37,650 nt of DNA. Origin: a virus. Positions 4,631-24,193 of this stretch are shown piece after piece (within the stretch, counting starts at the first letter, position 1; the number at the start of each line of letters is the position of its first letter). The stretch lies in IMG/VR virus record IMGVR_UViG_3300012929_000017, positions 1 through 37,650 of that record. One strand, given 5' to 3'. Both the position numbers and the translations under genes were made by a program. Under the pieces are notes generated by a model, which was given only the letters and a program-made list of their open reading frames with translations, had not been told where the DNA came from and did no database searches.

Positions 4631-5298
4631 ACCGCTATATCCCCATTAAAATAACTATTCATTTTTTCTTTTACGAAAGCAAGATCGTTTGGAATGTTTC
4701 TGGTTTCGAATAGTCCCATGGGTGATTTTGCAATATGTCTGGCATCGCCCTGAGTAACGAAAGTATATTTTCCATCGCTAATTTCAGTTTGTAATACCGT
4801 AGAATACATACCTTCGATAACAACATTATTGTCAATCATTTTTCCAATAGTTTTTATTTTCATTTTTCCAAGTTCATTTGGCTCGGAGTGAGTAAGGATA
4901 AAAATATCAAGGTCTTCACGTAATGTAGGAAGCATTTTTAATAATTGAAAAGCATGATTTCCCATTTCAGCAAATTTATCATAACCACGCTCCATGCAAC
5001 GGCTCATGAATTCATCAGCCATCAGATATTGGAAGTCATCAATAATGATCGTTCTAATATCAGGTCTTTTTTCATTAACTTTTTTCAACACAAGGGTAAT
5101 GTGATCATAGTTTGTTGAAGCATAATAATTACCTGTCATTGCATCCGGGGATACTCTTGTGTACATACCTTTGTAGCCACGGAACGGCAGCGGTTTATTA
5201 AGGACGTTAATAATAAAAGTTTCCTTTGGATCAAGATTTTTTATTGATGTTGATTTACCTGTACCGCTTTCACCCATAATAATTGATGTATTACTCAT
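4627..5298 (-). CDS. Sak4-like RecA-fold ATPase / annealing-type recombinase
   Basis: A 223-residue P-loop ATPase. The Walker A is GESGTGKST at residues 8-16, the Walker B is RTIIIDDFQYL in mid-protein, and a downstream FILTHSEP resembles the sensor strand of RecA-fold proteins. Size and motif order fit the phage Sak4 group of RecA-like single-strand annealing proteins. A longer reading (start at 5337) exists, but I prefer ATG 5298 because AGAGGA sits 8 bases before it and the gene then overlaps the upstream stop by 8 bases (ATGAGTAA), as elsewhere in the operon. Together with the Gp157- and SSB-like genes it forms a compact recombination module. A plain AAA ATPase is the alternative. Confidence 0.75.
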   Translation of the reverse strand: MSNTSIIMGESGTGKSTSIKNLDPKETFIINVLNKPLPFRGYKGMYTRVSPDAMTGNYYASTNYDHITLVLKKVNEKRPDIRTIIIDDFQYLMADEFMSRCMERGYDKFAEMGNHAFQLLKMLPTLREDLDIFILTHSEPNELGKMKIKTIGKMIDNNVVIEGMYSTVLQTEISDGKYTFVTQGDARHIAKSPMGLFETRNIPNDLAFVKEKMNSYFNGDIAV

Positions 5299-16302: not shown

Positions 16303-16473
16303 TTATTTATTCCATATCCAGATTCGGTTGTTATGCTGATTCTTGCCTCGGCTTACAAGCCAGTCAAAATAATATTCTTCGTGTTTAATGTTCATTATTG
16401 GCTCATCGCCAAATACAATGATCATTATGTAATAATTGCCATAGCCATCACATCGTTCGCATTTGTCATTCAT
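16303..16473 (-). CDS. Small protein with CxxC, 56 aa
   Basis: MNDKCERCDGYGNYYIMIIV: a CERCDGYG, DnaJ-like half zinc motif. The rest is aromatic (HEEYYFDWLVSRGKNQ, RIWIWNK). The start overlaps the upstream stop by 8 bases (ATGAATGA). Not recognised. Confidence 0.6.
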   Translation of the reverse strand: MNDKCERCDGYGNYYIMIIVFGDEPIMNIKHEEYYFDWLVSRGKNQHNNRIWIWNK

Positions 16474-16696
16474 CTTGCTGCTTATCTTCTGAATGAATCA
16501 ATAACGCCCGACCAACAAGTTCGCATTGGTCAAATGGCACACGCAGATAAGCATCACCTTGGCCTGGTATCTTGGTATAAGCCAATACACCCGATGACCT
16601 TACTTCGCTAACGACCATCAGACAGGCTGTCCAGCCTTCCTGTCCATTTTCGGTAATTTGTACTATGTCATGTACCTTGAGATTATGGGTTGTCAT
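16466..16696 (-). CDS. Hypothetical phage protein, 76 aa
   Basis: An SH3-like small beta protein: LKVHDIVQITENGQEGWTAC, LMVVSEVRSSGVLAYTKIPG, then DAYLRVPFDQCELVG. The 'G-W-x-x-x-x-x-V-x-E-V-R' pattern recurs in phage accessory genes and suggests an RNA- or protein-binding barrel. First protein gene of the accessory operon, just downstream of the tRNA-like cluster, so it may share their transcript. Confidence 0.7.
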   Translation of the reverse strand: MTTHNLKVHDIVQITENGQEGWTACLMVVSEVRSSGVLAYTKIPGQGDAYLRVPFDQCELVGRALLIHSEDKQQDE

Positions 16697-16768
16697 TACA
16701 AAATCCTGAAAGTTTGGATTGCGTAATTTACTTCAAAATGTGGTAATAGGAAAGGATAAAATTATTTT

Positions 16769-16835
16769 GCAGAAGGCCGGAATCGAACCGGCGACCGCCA
16801 AGTTTACTGGCCTCTGCCAACTGAGTTACTTCTGC
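16769..16835 (-). tRNA. Atypical tRNA-like gene, 67 nt (possible anticodon AAA)
   Basis: Acceptor GCAGAAG/CTTCTGC is 7 bp and perfect; the T arm GCCGG-TTCGATT-CCGGC is canonical; the D arm has CTC-AGTTGGCA-GAG. The anticodon stem is only 4 bp (GCCA/TGGC) with loop GTAAACT, whose U33 gives AAA. It is about 5-9 nt shorter than a normal tRNA and lacks an encoded CCA. It could be a functional minimal tRNA-Phe or a decayed one. The isotype is uncertain. Confidence 0.65.
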
Positions 16836-16843
16836 AAATATTT

Positions 16844-16945
16844 GACAATCGGCAAGAGTCGAACTTGCTCGCCGTTGCATAGGGTGCTTGGACACTCCGT
16901 ATGGCAACTCCAAGATCGCGTTTCACCGTGAACGCCACGATTGCC
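16844..16945 (-). ncRNA. tRNA-like RNA A, 102 nt, 8-bp acceptor, no clear anticodon arm
   Basis: Ends pair as GGCAATCG/CGATTGTC (8 bp with one G-U), abutting a canonical T arm GCAAG-TTCGACT-CTTGC. The D-like arm is GCG/CGC plus TTCA/TGAA around CGG. An 8-bp acceptor with a long D stem and CGGTGA is reminiscent of selenocysteine tRNA, but no UCA anticodon arm is seen. The centre folds either as CTTGGA/TCCAAG (16-nt loop) with a GTTGC/GCAAC pseudoknot, or as one long bulged hairpin. It shares 23 of its first 28 bases with RNA B. Confidence 0.6.
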
Positions 16946-17003
16946 ATAATTATTGTATTCAATTTGATACAAAACATTATTGTGCTTACTTGGATACAAA
17001 ATT

Positions 17004-17127
17004 GGCAATCGGCCGGAATTGCACCGGCTAGCATATTTACTCAGGAGCTTTTTATCCACAGATAAGATATATGCATCTCACTTGGTAACCTGACGTTGTG
17101 CGTGTCACTGTCCACGCCGCGATTGCC
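17004..17127 (-). ncRNA. tRNA-like RNA B, 124 nt, 8-bp acceptor, enlarged centre
   Basis: GGCAATCG/CGATTGCC gives a perfect 8-bp acceptor. The T arm is GCCGG-TGCAATT-CCGGC, with the canonical TTC of the T loop changed to TGC. The D-like arm is GCGTG-GACAGTGA-CACGC. The central 70 nt contain TTATC-TGTG-GATAA, nested within GCATAT/ATATGC, and TCAGG/CCTGA that could close the centre. It includes a perfect DnaA box (17052-17060). Too long for any ordinary tRNA; related to RNA A upstream in sequence and orientation. Confidence 0.55.
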
Positions 17128-17177
17128 ATAAATATTGCTGCTTTTTTCAGGGAATAACTGACCCATATAGCAGGTAA

Positions 17178-17261
17178 GCAGCACAGTCCTTCAATCATTG
17201 GGCTATTCATTCACATGCCACGCTGTCTTTTTAGTGCTGCCTAGGTGCGCAATAATAGCCC
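17178..17261. other. Pseudoknot-type inverted repeats in the gap
   Basis: Two perfect inverted repeats interleave: GCAGCAC (17178-17184) with GTGCTGC (17234-17240), and GGGCTATT (17200-17207) with AATAGCCC (17254-17261). The order A-B-A'-B' is that of an RNA pseudoknot. No T-arm signature is present, so this is not a further tRNA-like gene. It may be part of the same leftward structured transcript. Confidence 0.45.
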
Positions 17262-17503: not shown

Positions 17504-17519
17504 CATACATGGATGTATG
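17504..17519. promoter_or_regulatory. Perfect hairpin over the portal ribosome site
   Basis: CATACAT-GG-ATGTATG, a 7-bp perfect inverted repeat with a 2-base centre, covers the GGAT Shine-Dalgarno of the portal gene (ATG 17522) and a possible earlier ATG at 17513. It could bind a dimeric protein or hide the ribosome site in RNA. Confidence 0.5.
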
Positions 17520-17521
17520 CA

Positions 17522-19630
17522 ATGGCTAAAAAGGATCTGATTTTTACCCGTGAGCTTCGTGATTATATCAAAAAATGGGATGATGACTGGCGCTTCAACA
17601 AGGATCAGTATCATGAATTCATGTCTTTTGTCATGGGTAGCCAATGGACAGAGGACGAATCGAAGCTTTTCATCGATTACAAGAAAATACCCCTGAGCAT
17701 GAACAAGCTTGCACCACTGATTAACCATCTTTTGGGCGAGCAGCGGTTGAACACGCCGAATTTACAGGTTGTGCCGTCTGATCTTGTGCCAGCGGAAACG
17801 GTAGCGGTTCGGGAAGCCTTGGTTAAGGACATTTCATTGAATTCCTATGCCAAACGCGTCTATCAACAGGCTTTCCAGCAAGCCGCGATAGGTGGATTTG
17901 GTGCATATCTGATCGACACTGACTACGAAAGTAGCAGAGGAAACAATGCATTTGACCTGAAAATTGTTTTCCGTGAAACAAAAGACCCGACCTGGTGCTA
18001 TTGGGACGTCTCCGCGCAATCACCCTGCAAGACGGATGGAATGCGCTCCGGTATACGCACCAGAATGTCACGCAAGATGTTTGCATCATTGTTTGGTGAG
18101 AAGATTGAACGGCAGATAGGCTCGGAAGCCAATTATGATGAAGGCTCTGCTACGGGCTGGATTTTCTCGAATGACAAGGAAATCACTGTCATTGATGACT
18201 ACATGCGTGAATACAAGAACGAAACCATCTACCAGTTAAGCAATGGCAGAACGGTATCGGCACGCGAATTGAAGGAAATGCCACGCTGGGAAGTCAATGG
18301 TGAGGAAATGCTCGTTGATAATGGCGATATTGTGGAAATAGCCAACGAACGTGATGTTCCGAAGTACAAGATCAAGCACCGGAAATGTGCCGGTGATTTT
18401 GTTCTTGAAGAGACAGATTTTCCATCCGAGCAACTTCCGGTTGTTTTCGTTGACCAGAATTCATATATAGATAAATCAGGCAAGCAGTTATGCCGACCAT
18501 TCATCAAGGACGCGCGTGATGCGCAACGTTATATCAATTACCTTGCCACGCAATCGGCTTATCTCATGCGTGTATCGCGCTATGACCAGTTCATGGTGAG
18601 CAAGGCCAATGTTAAATCACCTGATACCCAACAGATATGGAAAGACCCAGCAACGGCACAAGGTGGGCTTGTCTATGATGAATCACCGAATGGAAACAAG
18701 CCTGAACAACTTCGGCCACCGGAGTTATCACCATCACTCATTACGCAATATCAGCGTGCCATGGCAGACATTGAATCCTGCACTGGCATGTATGGCACAC
18801 AAATTGGAGAACAGGGAAATGAAACTTCTGGAAAAGCTATCGATGCTCGTACGAAGCGTGGCAACTATAATACCTTTGTTCCTTTTGATTCTCTTAATCG
18901 TGCTATTGCTGTCGGAGGCCAGATAATCAATGAAATGATTCCGCTGGTTTATGATAATGAACGCCTGATGATGCTTTACATGCCAGACCGTGGCATTCAG
19001 GAAGTGGCAATCAATAAACCCAAGGACATATATGGTACAGGCATCGAAAATGACATGCGCGCTGGCAATTATCAGGTTCGTCTTTTGCCTGGACCAAGTT
19101 TCGAAGGCCAGAAGCAGGAAAATCTGGAGTCTATCCAGGCAGTCTTGCAAAGTGATCCTTCACTCTTTCGGATGGTTGCTGATTTGTATGTTGATAACCT
19201 GCCTATGGCTAATAACATTGAATTCCGTAATCGGCTTAGAACTTTAGTTCCGCCCGAAATTATCGAAGCTGGCAAGACTGGCAAGCCAATCCCACCGAAA
19301 CCACCAGAAATTCCTCCTGAATTCCAGCTGAAAATGCAGGAATTGCAATTGAAGCATATGCAAATCACGCAGGATGGGCAATTCAAGATGCAGGAACTCG
19401 CGCTTAAACAGCAGGAATTGCAATTGAAGGCTGTATCTACGGGACAGGATATCCATGGCGAAATGCAGAAGCTTGAAGCGGCCAAGGTAGAGATTGCTGC
19501 AAAGCTGCATGAGCAGGAAGTTCGTTATGAAGGTGAAATCCGTAGGCTTAATGCTGATATGGAAATTTCACATGCCAATAACATGGTTAAATTACTTACC
19601 AACAAAAAACACAAGGAAATCAGTGTATGA
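17522..19630 (+). CDS. Portal protein, P22-like
   Basis: A 702-residue protein forming the 12-fold channel at one capsid vertex. Start at ATG 17522 (GGAT 8 bases before), not 17513. The N-terminal wing has DDDWRFNKDQYHEFMSFVMG and the family-like MNKLAPLINHLLGEQRLN. A stem region follows (SAYLMRVSRYDQFMVSKANV; ETSGKAIDARTKRGNYNTF). The last 130 residues are Gln-rich helical repeats (KMQELQLKHMQ, KMQELALKQQELQLKA), which correspond to the barrel helix of P22 gp1. Length is close to P22 gp1 (about 725). Its stop overlaps the scaffold start by 4 bases. Confidence 0.9.
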   Translation: MAKKDLIFTRELRDYIKKWDDDWRFNKDQYHEFMSFVMGSQWTEDESKLFIDYKKIPLSMNKLAPLINHLLGEQRLNTPNLQVVPSDLVPAETVAVREALVKDISLNSYAKRVYQQAFQQAAIGGFGAYLIDTDYESSRGNNAFDLKIVFRETKDPTWCYWDVSAQSPCKTDGMRSGIRTRMSRKMFASLFGEKIERQIGSEANYDEGSATGWIFSNDKEITVIDDYMREYKNETIYQLSNGRTVSARELKEMPRWEVNGEEMLVDNGDIVEIANERDVPKYKIKHRKCAGDFVLEETDFPSEQLPVVFVDQNSYIDKSGKQLCRPFIKDARDAQRYINYLATQSAYLMRVSRYDQFMVSKANVKSPDTQQIWKDPATAQGGLVYDESPNGNKPEQLRPPELSPSLITQYQRAMADIESCTGMYGTQIGEQGNETSGKAIDARTKRGNYNTFVPFDSLNRAIAVGGQIINEMIPLVYDNERLMMLYMPDRGIQEVAINKPKDIYGTGIENDMRAGNYQVRLLPGPSFEGQKQENLESIQAVLQSDPSLFRMVADLYVDNLPMANNIEFRNRLRTLVPPEIIEAGKTGKPIPPKPPEIPPEFQLKMQELQLKHMQITQDGQFKMQELALKQQELQLKAVSTGQDIHGEMQKLEAAKVEIAAKLHEQEVRYEGEIRRLNADMEISHANNMVKLLTNKKHKEISV

Positions 19631-24043: not shown

Positions 24044-24045
24044 TA

Positions 24046-24117
24046 TGCCCACAAAAGGAATCGAACCTTTAATTAATCATTACGAGTGATTTGTTATACC
24101 ATTTAACTATGCGGGCA
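24046..24117 (-). tRNA. tRNA-Thr (CGT)
   Basis: Acceptor TGCCCGC/GTGGGCA (7 bp with one G-U), anticodon stem AATCA/TGATT, loop CTCGTAA with U33 and anticodon CGT, T arm AAAGG-TTCGATT-CCTTT. CCA is not encoded. Reads ACG codons. The D stem is short. Confidence 0.9.
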
Positions 24118-24122
24118 TTTAT

Positions 24123-24193
24123 GCCCAAGACAGGAATCGAACCTGTAATCTACCGCTTACAAGGCGGTTGCATCACCTTTATGCTACTCGGGC
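24123..24193 (-). tRNA. tRNA-Thr (TGT)
   Basis: Acceptor GCCCGAG/CTTGGGC (one G-U), D stem GCAT/ATGC, anticodon stem ACCGC/GCGGT with loop CTTGTAA (anticodon TGT), T arm ACAGG-TTCGATT-CCTGT. CCA is not encoded. Reads ACA. Six bases from the second Thr tRNA; its 5' end overlaps the stop of the 85-codon gene by 10 bases. Confidence 0.95.

Follow-up and report, generated by a model that had tools for sequence, protein, structure and literature searches.

RNA A and RNA B, two adjacent tRNA-like RNAs in an environmental virus genome, are members of a large, previously unlisted bacteriophage RNA family. The family was recovered from approximately 130 IMG/VR contigs and four bacterial MAGs. Its members share a common scaffold composed of an acceptor of 7 to 8 bp, a C-G linker, a 5-bp D stem with the D loop GAC[A/G]GTGA, and a 5-bp T arm with a 7-nt loop. 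Between the D arm and the T arm, where an anticodon arm would be expected, there is a structured centre (payload) that is different in nearly every phage. The data point to a function that lies in this variable centre at least as much as in the tRNA-like body, because one centre was kept in phages whose stems differ.

Two RNAs without an anticodon arm

The window, i.e., the whole 37,650-base virus record, encodes podovirus-like head and packaging genes (terminase large subunit, portal, major head protein, and head-closure protein). Between the portal gene and a run of small minus-strand genes there are approximately 800 bases without a credible gene, in which RNA B, RNA A, and a tRNA-like gene follow one another on the minus strand (Table 1). 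The initial annotation had described RNA A and RNA B as related RNAs of 102 and 124 nt that share 23 of their first 28 bases, and their sites, lengths, and relationship were all confirmed. In both, an acceptor of 8 bp is joined by a 2-nt linker to a D arm with a 5-bp stem and an 8-nt loop, and the T arm has 5 bp and a loop of 7 nt. Neither RNA has a canonical anticodon arm, which is replaced in both. The 8-bp acceptor holds for both window RNAs but is not a strict family rule, as 21 of 120 members have 7 bp. The suggestion that the RNAs might be tRNAs carrying inserts came close in form, but the insert replaces the entire anticodon and variable region.

Table 1. Positions of the RNAs, their parts, and the flanking genes in the window
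Feature	Position	Strand	Detail or basis
First gene of small minus-strand gene run	16466-16696	minus	
Third RNA of array, tRNA-like, shortened anticodon arm (GCCAGTAAACTTGGC)	16768-16835	minus	Rfam tRNA, 42.7 bits
RNA A, whole, tRNA-like, 102 nt, GG/TTC elbow subtype	16844-16945	minus	model R1, 59.3 bits, E 1.8e-12 (seed)
RNA A acceptor 5' strand GGCAATCG	16938-16945	minus	pairs with 16844-16851 CGATTGTC
RNA A D arm GCGTT-cacggtga-AACGC	16918-16935	minus	
RNA A payload, 49 nt	16869-16917	minus	read from sequence
RNA A candidate pseudoknot S1	CTTGGA 16909-16914 : TCCAAG 16887-16892	minus	
RNA A candidate pseudoknot S2	GTTGcCATA 16900-16908 : TATGCAAC 16874-16881	minus	
RNA A T arm GCAAG-ttcgact-CTTGC	16852-16868	minus	partial tmRNA T-arm match and alignment
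RNA A acceptor 3' strand	16844-16851	minus	discriminator A at 16843
RNA B, whole, tRNA-like, 124 nt	17004-17127	minus	model R1, 90.3 bits, E 1.6e-20 (seed)
RNA B acceptor 5' strand GGCAATCG	17120-17127	minus	pairs with 17004-17011 CGATTGCC
RNA B C-G linker	17118-17119	minus	
RNA B D arm GCGTG-gacagtga-CACGC	17100-17117	minus	stem covaries in family
RNA B payload, 71 nt	17029-17099	minus	read from sequence
RNA B candidate pseudoknot S1	TCAGG 17089-17093 : CCTGA 17041-17045	minus	
RNA B candidate pseudoknot S2	GCATAT 17069-17074 : ATATGC 17031-17036	minus	
RNA B payload hairpin	17052-17065	minus	
RNA B T arm GCCGG-tgcaatt-CCGGC	17012-17028	minus	sequence and family alignment
RNA B acceptor 3' strand	17004-17011	minus	discriminator A at 17003; CCA not encoded
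Portal gene	17513-19630	plus	

Neither RNA A nor RNA B matched an Rfam family at the curated threshold (4227 families, including Y RNA-like and riboswitch families; the window was scanned at the gathering threshold and positions 16700 to 17200 to E 10), and ARAGORN called no tRNA at either site, so that neither program assigned them to a known tRNA class. The models for tmRNA (RF00023) and permuted tmRNA (RF04321) detected T-arm fragments only, at 6.6 and 9.8 bits versus 47, and the 9.8-bit fragment falls in the neighbouring tRNA gene rather than in RNA A or RNA B. Eight related loci yielded tRNA matches only in Rfam. A covariance search with model R1 recovered RNA B at 90 bits and RNA A at 59 bits, scores that are not independent because both RNAs are seed sequences of the model. 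A protein-coding origin was rejected: none of the open reading frames in the gap, four of which overlap the RNAs, matched a PHROG family, and the homologues vary freely in length. Promoter-like sites in the RNA region of the window were within the shuffled range, and a search of the region for a terminator found none. Ten window genes, mostly from the minus-strand run that follows the RNAs, matched no PADLOC (defence) family.

The third RNA of the array starts 8 nt after RNA A and was missed by ARAGORN despite its Rfam tRNA match. Its anticodon arm is only 15 nt, a 4-bp stem with the loop GTAAACT, and it is possibly another non-decoding RNA. Elsewhere in the window, two tRNA-Thr genes (CGT and TGT) lie side by side on the minus strand at 24045-24193, adjoining the major head gene.

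A family-wide fold with a tRNA elbow

A search word with 23 fixed positions, taken from the common 5' end, identified 10 viral contigs that have RNA B-like 5' and 3' ends but unrelated centres. Looser D-arm words combined with a structure filter raised the collection to 120 distinct members at 115 loci, and a final scan with loop words only added 13 loci showing the fold. An exact-word scan of bacterial genomes gave seven matches, four with the full structure, on MAG contigs binned as Armatimonadetes, Planctomycetota, Chloroflexi, and Legionella, each of which could be a prophage or a phage contig placed in the MAG bin. Whole-record searches (records of up to approximately 80 kb) found one to three copies per record. 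The D and T arms of RNA A were found again at 995-1147 of L191. In contrast to this recurrence in environmental phages and in contigs assigned to bins of four or more bacterial phyla, the family is almost missing from catalogued phages. BLAST searches of INPHARED and PLSDB with an 86-nt composite of a typical acceptor, D arm, and T arm, with the GG-type member L145, and with RNA B returned no full-scaffold member, and four INPHARED matches that were fetched and scanned contained T-arm fragments or ordinary tRNAs only. By BLAST with these three queries, the family thus appears to be absent from approximately 50,000 catalogued phages. A literature search, conducted mostly without preprints and subscription papers, found no description of such RNAs. 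Sphingobium phage Lacusarx (L263, 1327-1600) and Cyanophage Cy-LDV1 (L265, 1260-1425) have unannotated T-arm words and tRNA-like fragments, located either within a cluster of tRNAs or among small genes that follow an SSB gene; these stretches fall outside the scaffold family.

Single-sequence folding of the window RNAs is weak (z of -1.3 for RNA A and -2.3 for RNA B), and it is the homologues that reveal the fold. The D-arm words used for searching contain neither the acceptor nor the T arm. Nevertheless, 66 of 93 matches to the AG-type word GGNGTGGANAGTGACACNC were followed downstream by a perfect T stem and a complement to at least seven of the eight acceptor bases, compared with 0.14 in shuffles, and 28 of 38 matches to the GG-type word had an equally perfect T stem and the same minimum acceptor complement, again versus 0.14. 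In an alignment of 44 members (A1), 98.7% of cells were paired, a level that none of 500 shuffles reached. Both-side changes were found in 16 of 18 pairs (every one of the eight in the acceptor and four each in the D and T stems), so the acceptor, D, and T stems all covary. The initial annotation had asked whether homologues would lose complementarity; compensatory changes keep the pairing instead. The members of A1 were picked by pairing, and the D-word and loop-word tests are therefore cleaner. Among 41 members selected with loop words only, the full 5/5 D stem was present in 37, the full 5/5 T stem in 38, and at least seven of eight acceptor pairs in 37. The D stems of these loop-selected members were diverse (TCTTG/CAAGA, CTGCT/AGCGG, GCATT/AATGC, and ATGCG/CGCAT); variants across the family include the first, second, and last of these as well as GCGTT/AACGC. 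The acceptor sequence is free, with 77 distinct strands. We regard the structure of the family as described here as nearly certain.

Tertiary pairs 18-55, 19-56, and 15-48 are found in tRNAs, and the elbow is recognised by RNase P, RNase Z, and the CCA enzyme (PMC4810234). In the phage family, the D loop GACGGTGA occurred with the T-loop bases TTC in 30 of 30 cases and GACAGTGA with TGC in 86 of 90. The resulting association between positions 18 and 55 (AG-G55, 86; GG-U55, 30; crossed combinations, 4 and 0; Fisher p 3e-24) represents independent tertiary covariation because position 55 was free in the searches behind the count. Read from sequence only, G19-C56 was kept in 118 of 120 members, and both A15 and A21 were present in all 120, an invariance that is partly by construction because A15, G19, and A21 lie inside the search words, which partly imposed the conservation of the D loop. 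The base preceding the T arm, A48, was conserved in 116 of 120 members and is position 17029 in RNA B. The covariation of position 18 with position 55 and the retention of G19-C56 indicate at the sequence level that the tRNA elbow is real. The window phage carries both elbow types, because RNA A is GG/TTC and RNA B is AG/TGC. An ordinary phage tRNA with anticodon CAU (L297, 3429-3500) has the same AG/TGCAATT elbow, and this combination is therefore a true elbow variant. Thus, covariation can turn the elbow pair 18-55 from G-U into A-G, and a tRNA elbow can persist while the decoding half is wholly replaced.

Centres that turn over, and one that has spread

An anticodon arm in the canonical position was found in 4 of 120 members, compared with 1.3 by shuffle. 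The centres that take its place range from 29 to over 250 nt, and approximately 100 of them included only five small alignable groups, of which later scans extended one to a third member and another to its fifth, a hypervariability whose estimate rests on fragmentary metagenome contigs. The two centres in the window are unrelated to each other, as are those in four other two-copy loci. L002, in which the portal is 76% identical, also carries two members at the corresponding genomic site, and the centres there are unrelated.

A helix abutting the T arm is a robust general feature of the centres. In the 89 centres evaluated, a helix whose 3' strand ends 1 to 3 nt before the T arm was stronger than in shuffles. 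In L015, L016, and L292 (alignment A2) this T-arm-proximal helix has two compensatory pairs, the adjoining hairpin has four, and a near-invariant helix crosses the T-arm-proximal helix. Both-side changes in the T-arm-proximal helix were also recognised by eye in the pairs L076/L112 and L014/L020 (AAGGA:TCCTT to AGGGA:TCCCT; TCTCAATG:CATTGAGA to TCTTTATG:CATAGAGA). A universal H-type pseudoknot was rejected, with modest average support only across the same 89 centres (mean z of -0.59, SE 0.08), and because most payloads are single examples, the pseudoknots cannot be proven one by one. Those drawn for RNA A and RNA B are possible and have the same topology as in the family groups, but neither is significant by itself: S1 plus S2 was the top-scoring combination for RNA B in the crossing-helix scan, yet had a z of -1.06 for RNA B alone, and the scan of RNA A paired S1 with a different S2 (TTGCC:GGCGA; z of -1.39).

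One payload has spread horizontally. In L018, L040, L052, L073, and L266, the centre blocks GGAAGCAACnTAGCTGAGCCTTCTCCCCAGTGGATnCC and TGTTCAGCAAAACTGGA are invariant except at two positions, while the acceptors vary, as does the D stem of L266. L040 and L073 share 59 identical bases in the centre and otherwise have no detectable similarity; the similarity of L018 to L040 and L073 is confined to these RNAs, and L052, L073, and L266 are distantly related outside the RNA. Because the block is near-invariant while stems and genomes differ, the payload must have moved between phages and been kept by selection while the chassis was rewritten. This conserved core is the strongest reason for placing function in the payload.

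Several other centres have distinctive contents. L024 and L236 are unrelated contigs with centres of approximately 250 nt that have GGAAGGCGCGAACGA-AGGCTGGAAAACGCCATAGGCGTG in common. At 3056-3249 of L297, the centre of a family member encloses a tRNA (Rfam, 36 bits) whose anticodon loop has an insert of 54 nt, and acceptor and T arms are likewise nested in L243 (10185-10316) and L046/L079. Nested T arms were found in 4 of 120 members versus 0.2 expected.

Context, possible function, and neighbouring RNAs

Family members occur in arrays with tRNAs, and nearby tRNAs always share their strand. Spacers are 7 to 21 nt in several arrays; for example, the order in L054 is RNA, 21 nt, tRNA-Gln, 7 nt, RNA, and in L297 a family member lies among five tRNAs. 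Within 1 kb on the same strand, tRNA-type structures (identified by structure only) were approximately 10 times denser than elsewhere. Leaders are A/T rich (T at -1 in 63%, A at -2 in 62%), and CCA is encoded in only 9 of 120 members. No partner gene is universal: Sak4-like genes were found in 14 loci and the SSB-like phrog_2698 in 11, including the gene before the RNA in L191. In several phages (e.g., L032, L042, and L076) an SSB-like gene with a DDDIPF-type tail precedes the RNA, a gene order that suggests early expression of the RNAs.

Canonical tRNAs (RF00005) and the phage RNAs have in common the acceptor, D arm, T arm, 7-nt T loop, G19-C56, arrays, and T at -1. However, the family is missing the anticodon arm (5-bp stem and 7-nt loop, positions 27 to 43) and has a 5-bp D stem, a mostly 8-bp acceptor, A at 48, and a structured centre of 29 to 250 nt, and the RF00005 model gives no match to RNA A or RNA B. 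Both tRNA-Sec and allo-tRNAs depart from the standard cloverleaf and have an acceptor/T stack of 12 to 13 bp, but they keep an anticodon arm and decode. The partial resemblance to tRNA-Sec that had been noted for the window RNAs is superficial and limited to their 8+5 stack. Like tmRNA, the family has tRNA-like ends with pseudoknots between them, but it has a D stem and no P2-type helix, and no tag reading frame was noticed. Plant-virus tRNA-like structures, which are pseudoknotted, and bacterial YrlA Y RNAs are non-decoding tRNA mimics with a topology different from that of the phage family, and the phage RNAs matched no such Rfam family. Type III antitoxin RNAs (ToxI-like) are tandem repeats of short pseudoknots beside an endoribonuclease toxin gene, in contrast to the mutually unrelated payloads of the window and its ten genes without a PADLOC family match. 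In the engineered tRNA scaffold for recombinant RNA, an RNA of interest reportedly replaces the anticodon stem and host tRNA enzymes make and protect the RNA. That scaffold is artificial; the phage family would be a natural, fast-evolving counterpart.

The explanation to which we give about an even chance is that the family is a phage tRNA chassis that matures and protects a fast-evolving payload, which most likely would be a decoy or inhibitor of a host or competitor protein. The outer part is the true upper half of a tRNA (acceptor, D arm, T arm, and docked D and T loops), with a structured payload in place of the anticodon arm and variable loop. The chassis would be transcribed in an array with tRNAs, excised by RNase P and by RNase Z or other elbow-reading 3' enzymes of the host, and given CCA, so that the payload would come free as a stable and closed molecule. 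It is probable that the RNAs mature in the tRNA pathway, because the chassis has the elbow by which RNase P, RNase Z, and the CCA enzyme recognise their substrates (PMC4810234) and should be cut and capped like a tRNA. The small share of members with an encoded CCA, the lack of a constant partner gene, and the absence of defence-family matches among the ten window genes count against this explanation. That the payload binds a protein is proposed more tentatively, at somewhat less than an even chance; a role as a protein decoy or inhibitor would explain its rapid turnover and its spread between phages. If the payloads do inhibit or decoy host proteins, they would amount to a naturally evolved collection of RNA inhibitors, with the chassis as nature's version of the laboratory tRNA scaffold.

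Another possibility, which we consider rather unlikely, is that the tRNA-like body is itself the effector, occupying a host factor that binds the elbow or acceptor (RNase P, tRNase Z, the CCA enzyme, EF-Tu, the ribosome, or a tRNA-targeting nuclease), with the centre as filler that prevents decoding. The most conserved elements, the D loop, T loop, G19-C56, and A48, form the surface that elbow binders read (PMC4810234), and the free acceptor sequence also fits this possibility. However, D-loop conservation is partly ascertainment from the search words, and filler would not be expected to be structured, with a covarying helix next to the T arm, to retain a near-invariant core across phages with differing stems, or to occur as several copies with unrelated centres in one phage. 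An antisense or base-pairing small RNA on a tRNA chassis would follow the same chassis logic and would suit payload sequences specific to each phage. The centres are highly structured, however, and the longest complements between the window payloads and their own phage genome (10 to 12 nt) did not exceed the shuffled maxima of 13 to 15 nt, making this explanation improbable.

Even less probable are interrupted tRNAs, in which removal of an intron that forms all or part of the centre would leave a decoding tRNA. The whole tRNA within the outer RNA of L297 and the excess of nested T arms would agree with such an arrangement, but the anticodon arm is missing from its canonical place, a conserved splice site or intron core was not found, and no group I or II intron in Rfam matched the window or eight related loci. 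A diverged tRNA-Sec, allo-tRNA, or tmRNA active in translation is very improbable. Although the 8+5 bp acceptor/T stack and the D-loop sequence CGGTGA of RNA A, which we take to be reminiscent of tRNA-Sec, would be in its favor, the RNAs lack both an anticodon arm and a variable hairpin at any constant position, their acceptor sequence is random, and neither tmRNA nor tRNA models match RNA A or RNA B. The chance that these are degenerate tRNA pseudogenes or fortuitous pairings is negligible. The weak single-sequence folding energies are what such sequences would show, but every variable stem position is compensatory and the 66 observed structures compare with 0.14 expected; A1 covariation, the D-word shuffles, and loop-word-only selection rule this explanation out.

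Because phage genomes are searched for protein genes and standard tRNAs, a whole layer of structured RNAs can escape notice. It is conceivable, albeit more doubtful than the proposals on maturation and protein binding, that phages of many bacterial phyla carry islands of tRNA-scaffolded, hypervariable, exchanged RNA effectors that are built on several scaffold families (the scaffold described here and GGCC-GACGAT...AAAATA-GGCC-RCCA) and all matured by the host tRNA pathway. Such islands, if they exist, would be the RNA counterpart of protein anti-defence islands.

Of the window's other portal relatives, L007 and L011 were the only ones with a model match, and L009 and L005 have in the equivalent place other closed RNAs with an encoded RCCA end. 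The latter loci are among those of a second RNA family, GGCC-GACGAT(AC)...(GG)AAAATA-GGCC-RCCA, which is 65 to 140 nt long with CCA encoded and a variable middle. It was found in L005, L009 (two copies), L011, L043, L074, L097 (two), L301, L303, L307, L308 (two; minus strand, 4092 and 4253), and L310, often directly upstream of a scaffold-family member with the spacer GTTTAT. A third tRNA-like family has GCTCGAAAAG near its 5' end, GAAGAG in mid-RNA, closure by an acceptor and T arm, and the T loop TGAAAGT, TGAAATT, or TGCAATT; its sites are in L075 (downstream of 4775-4913), L064 (upstream of 7605), and L089 (1692-1853). In L146, L246, L096, L049, L031, and L260, the hairpin-like conserved word GACAGCCGGAGAGACGGC or variants of it stand directly before the RNA.
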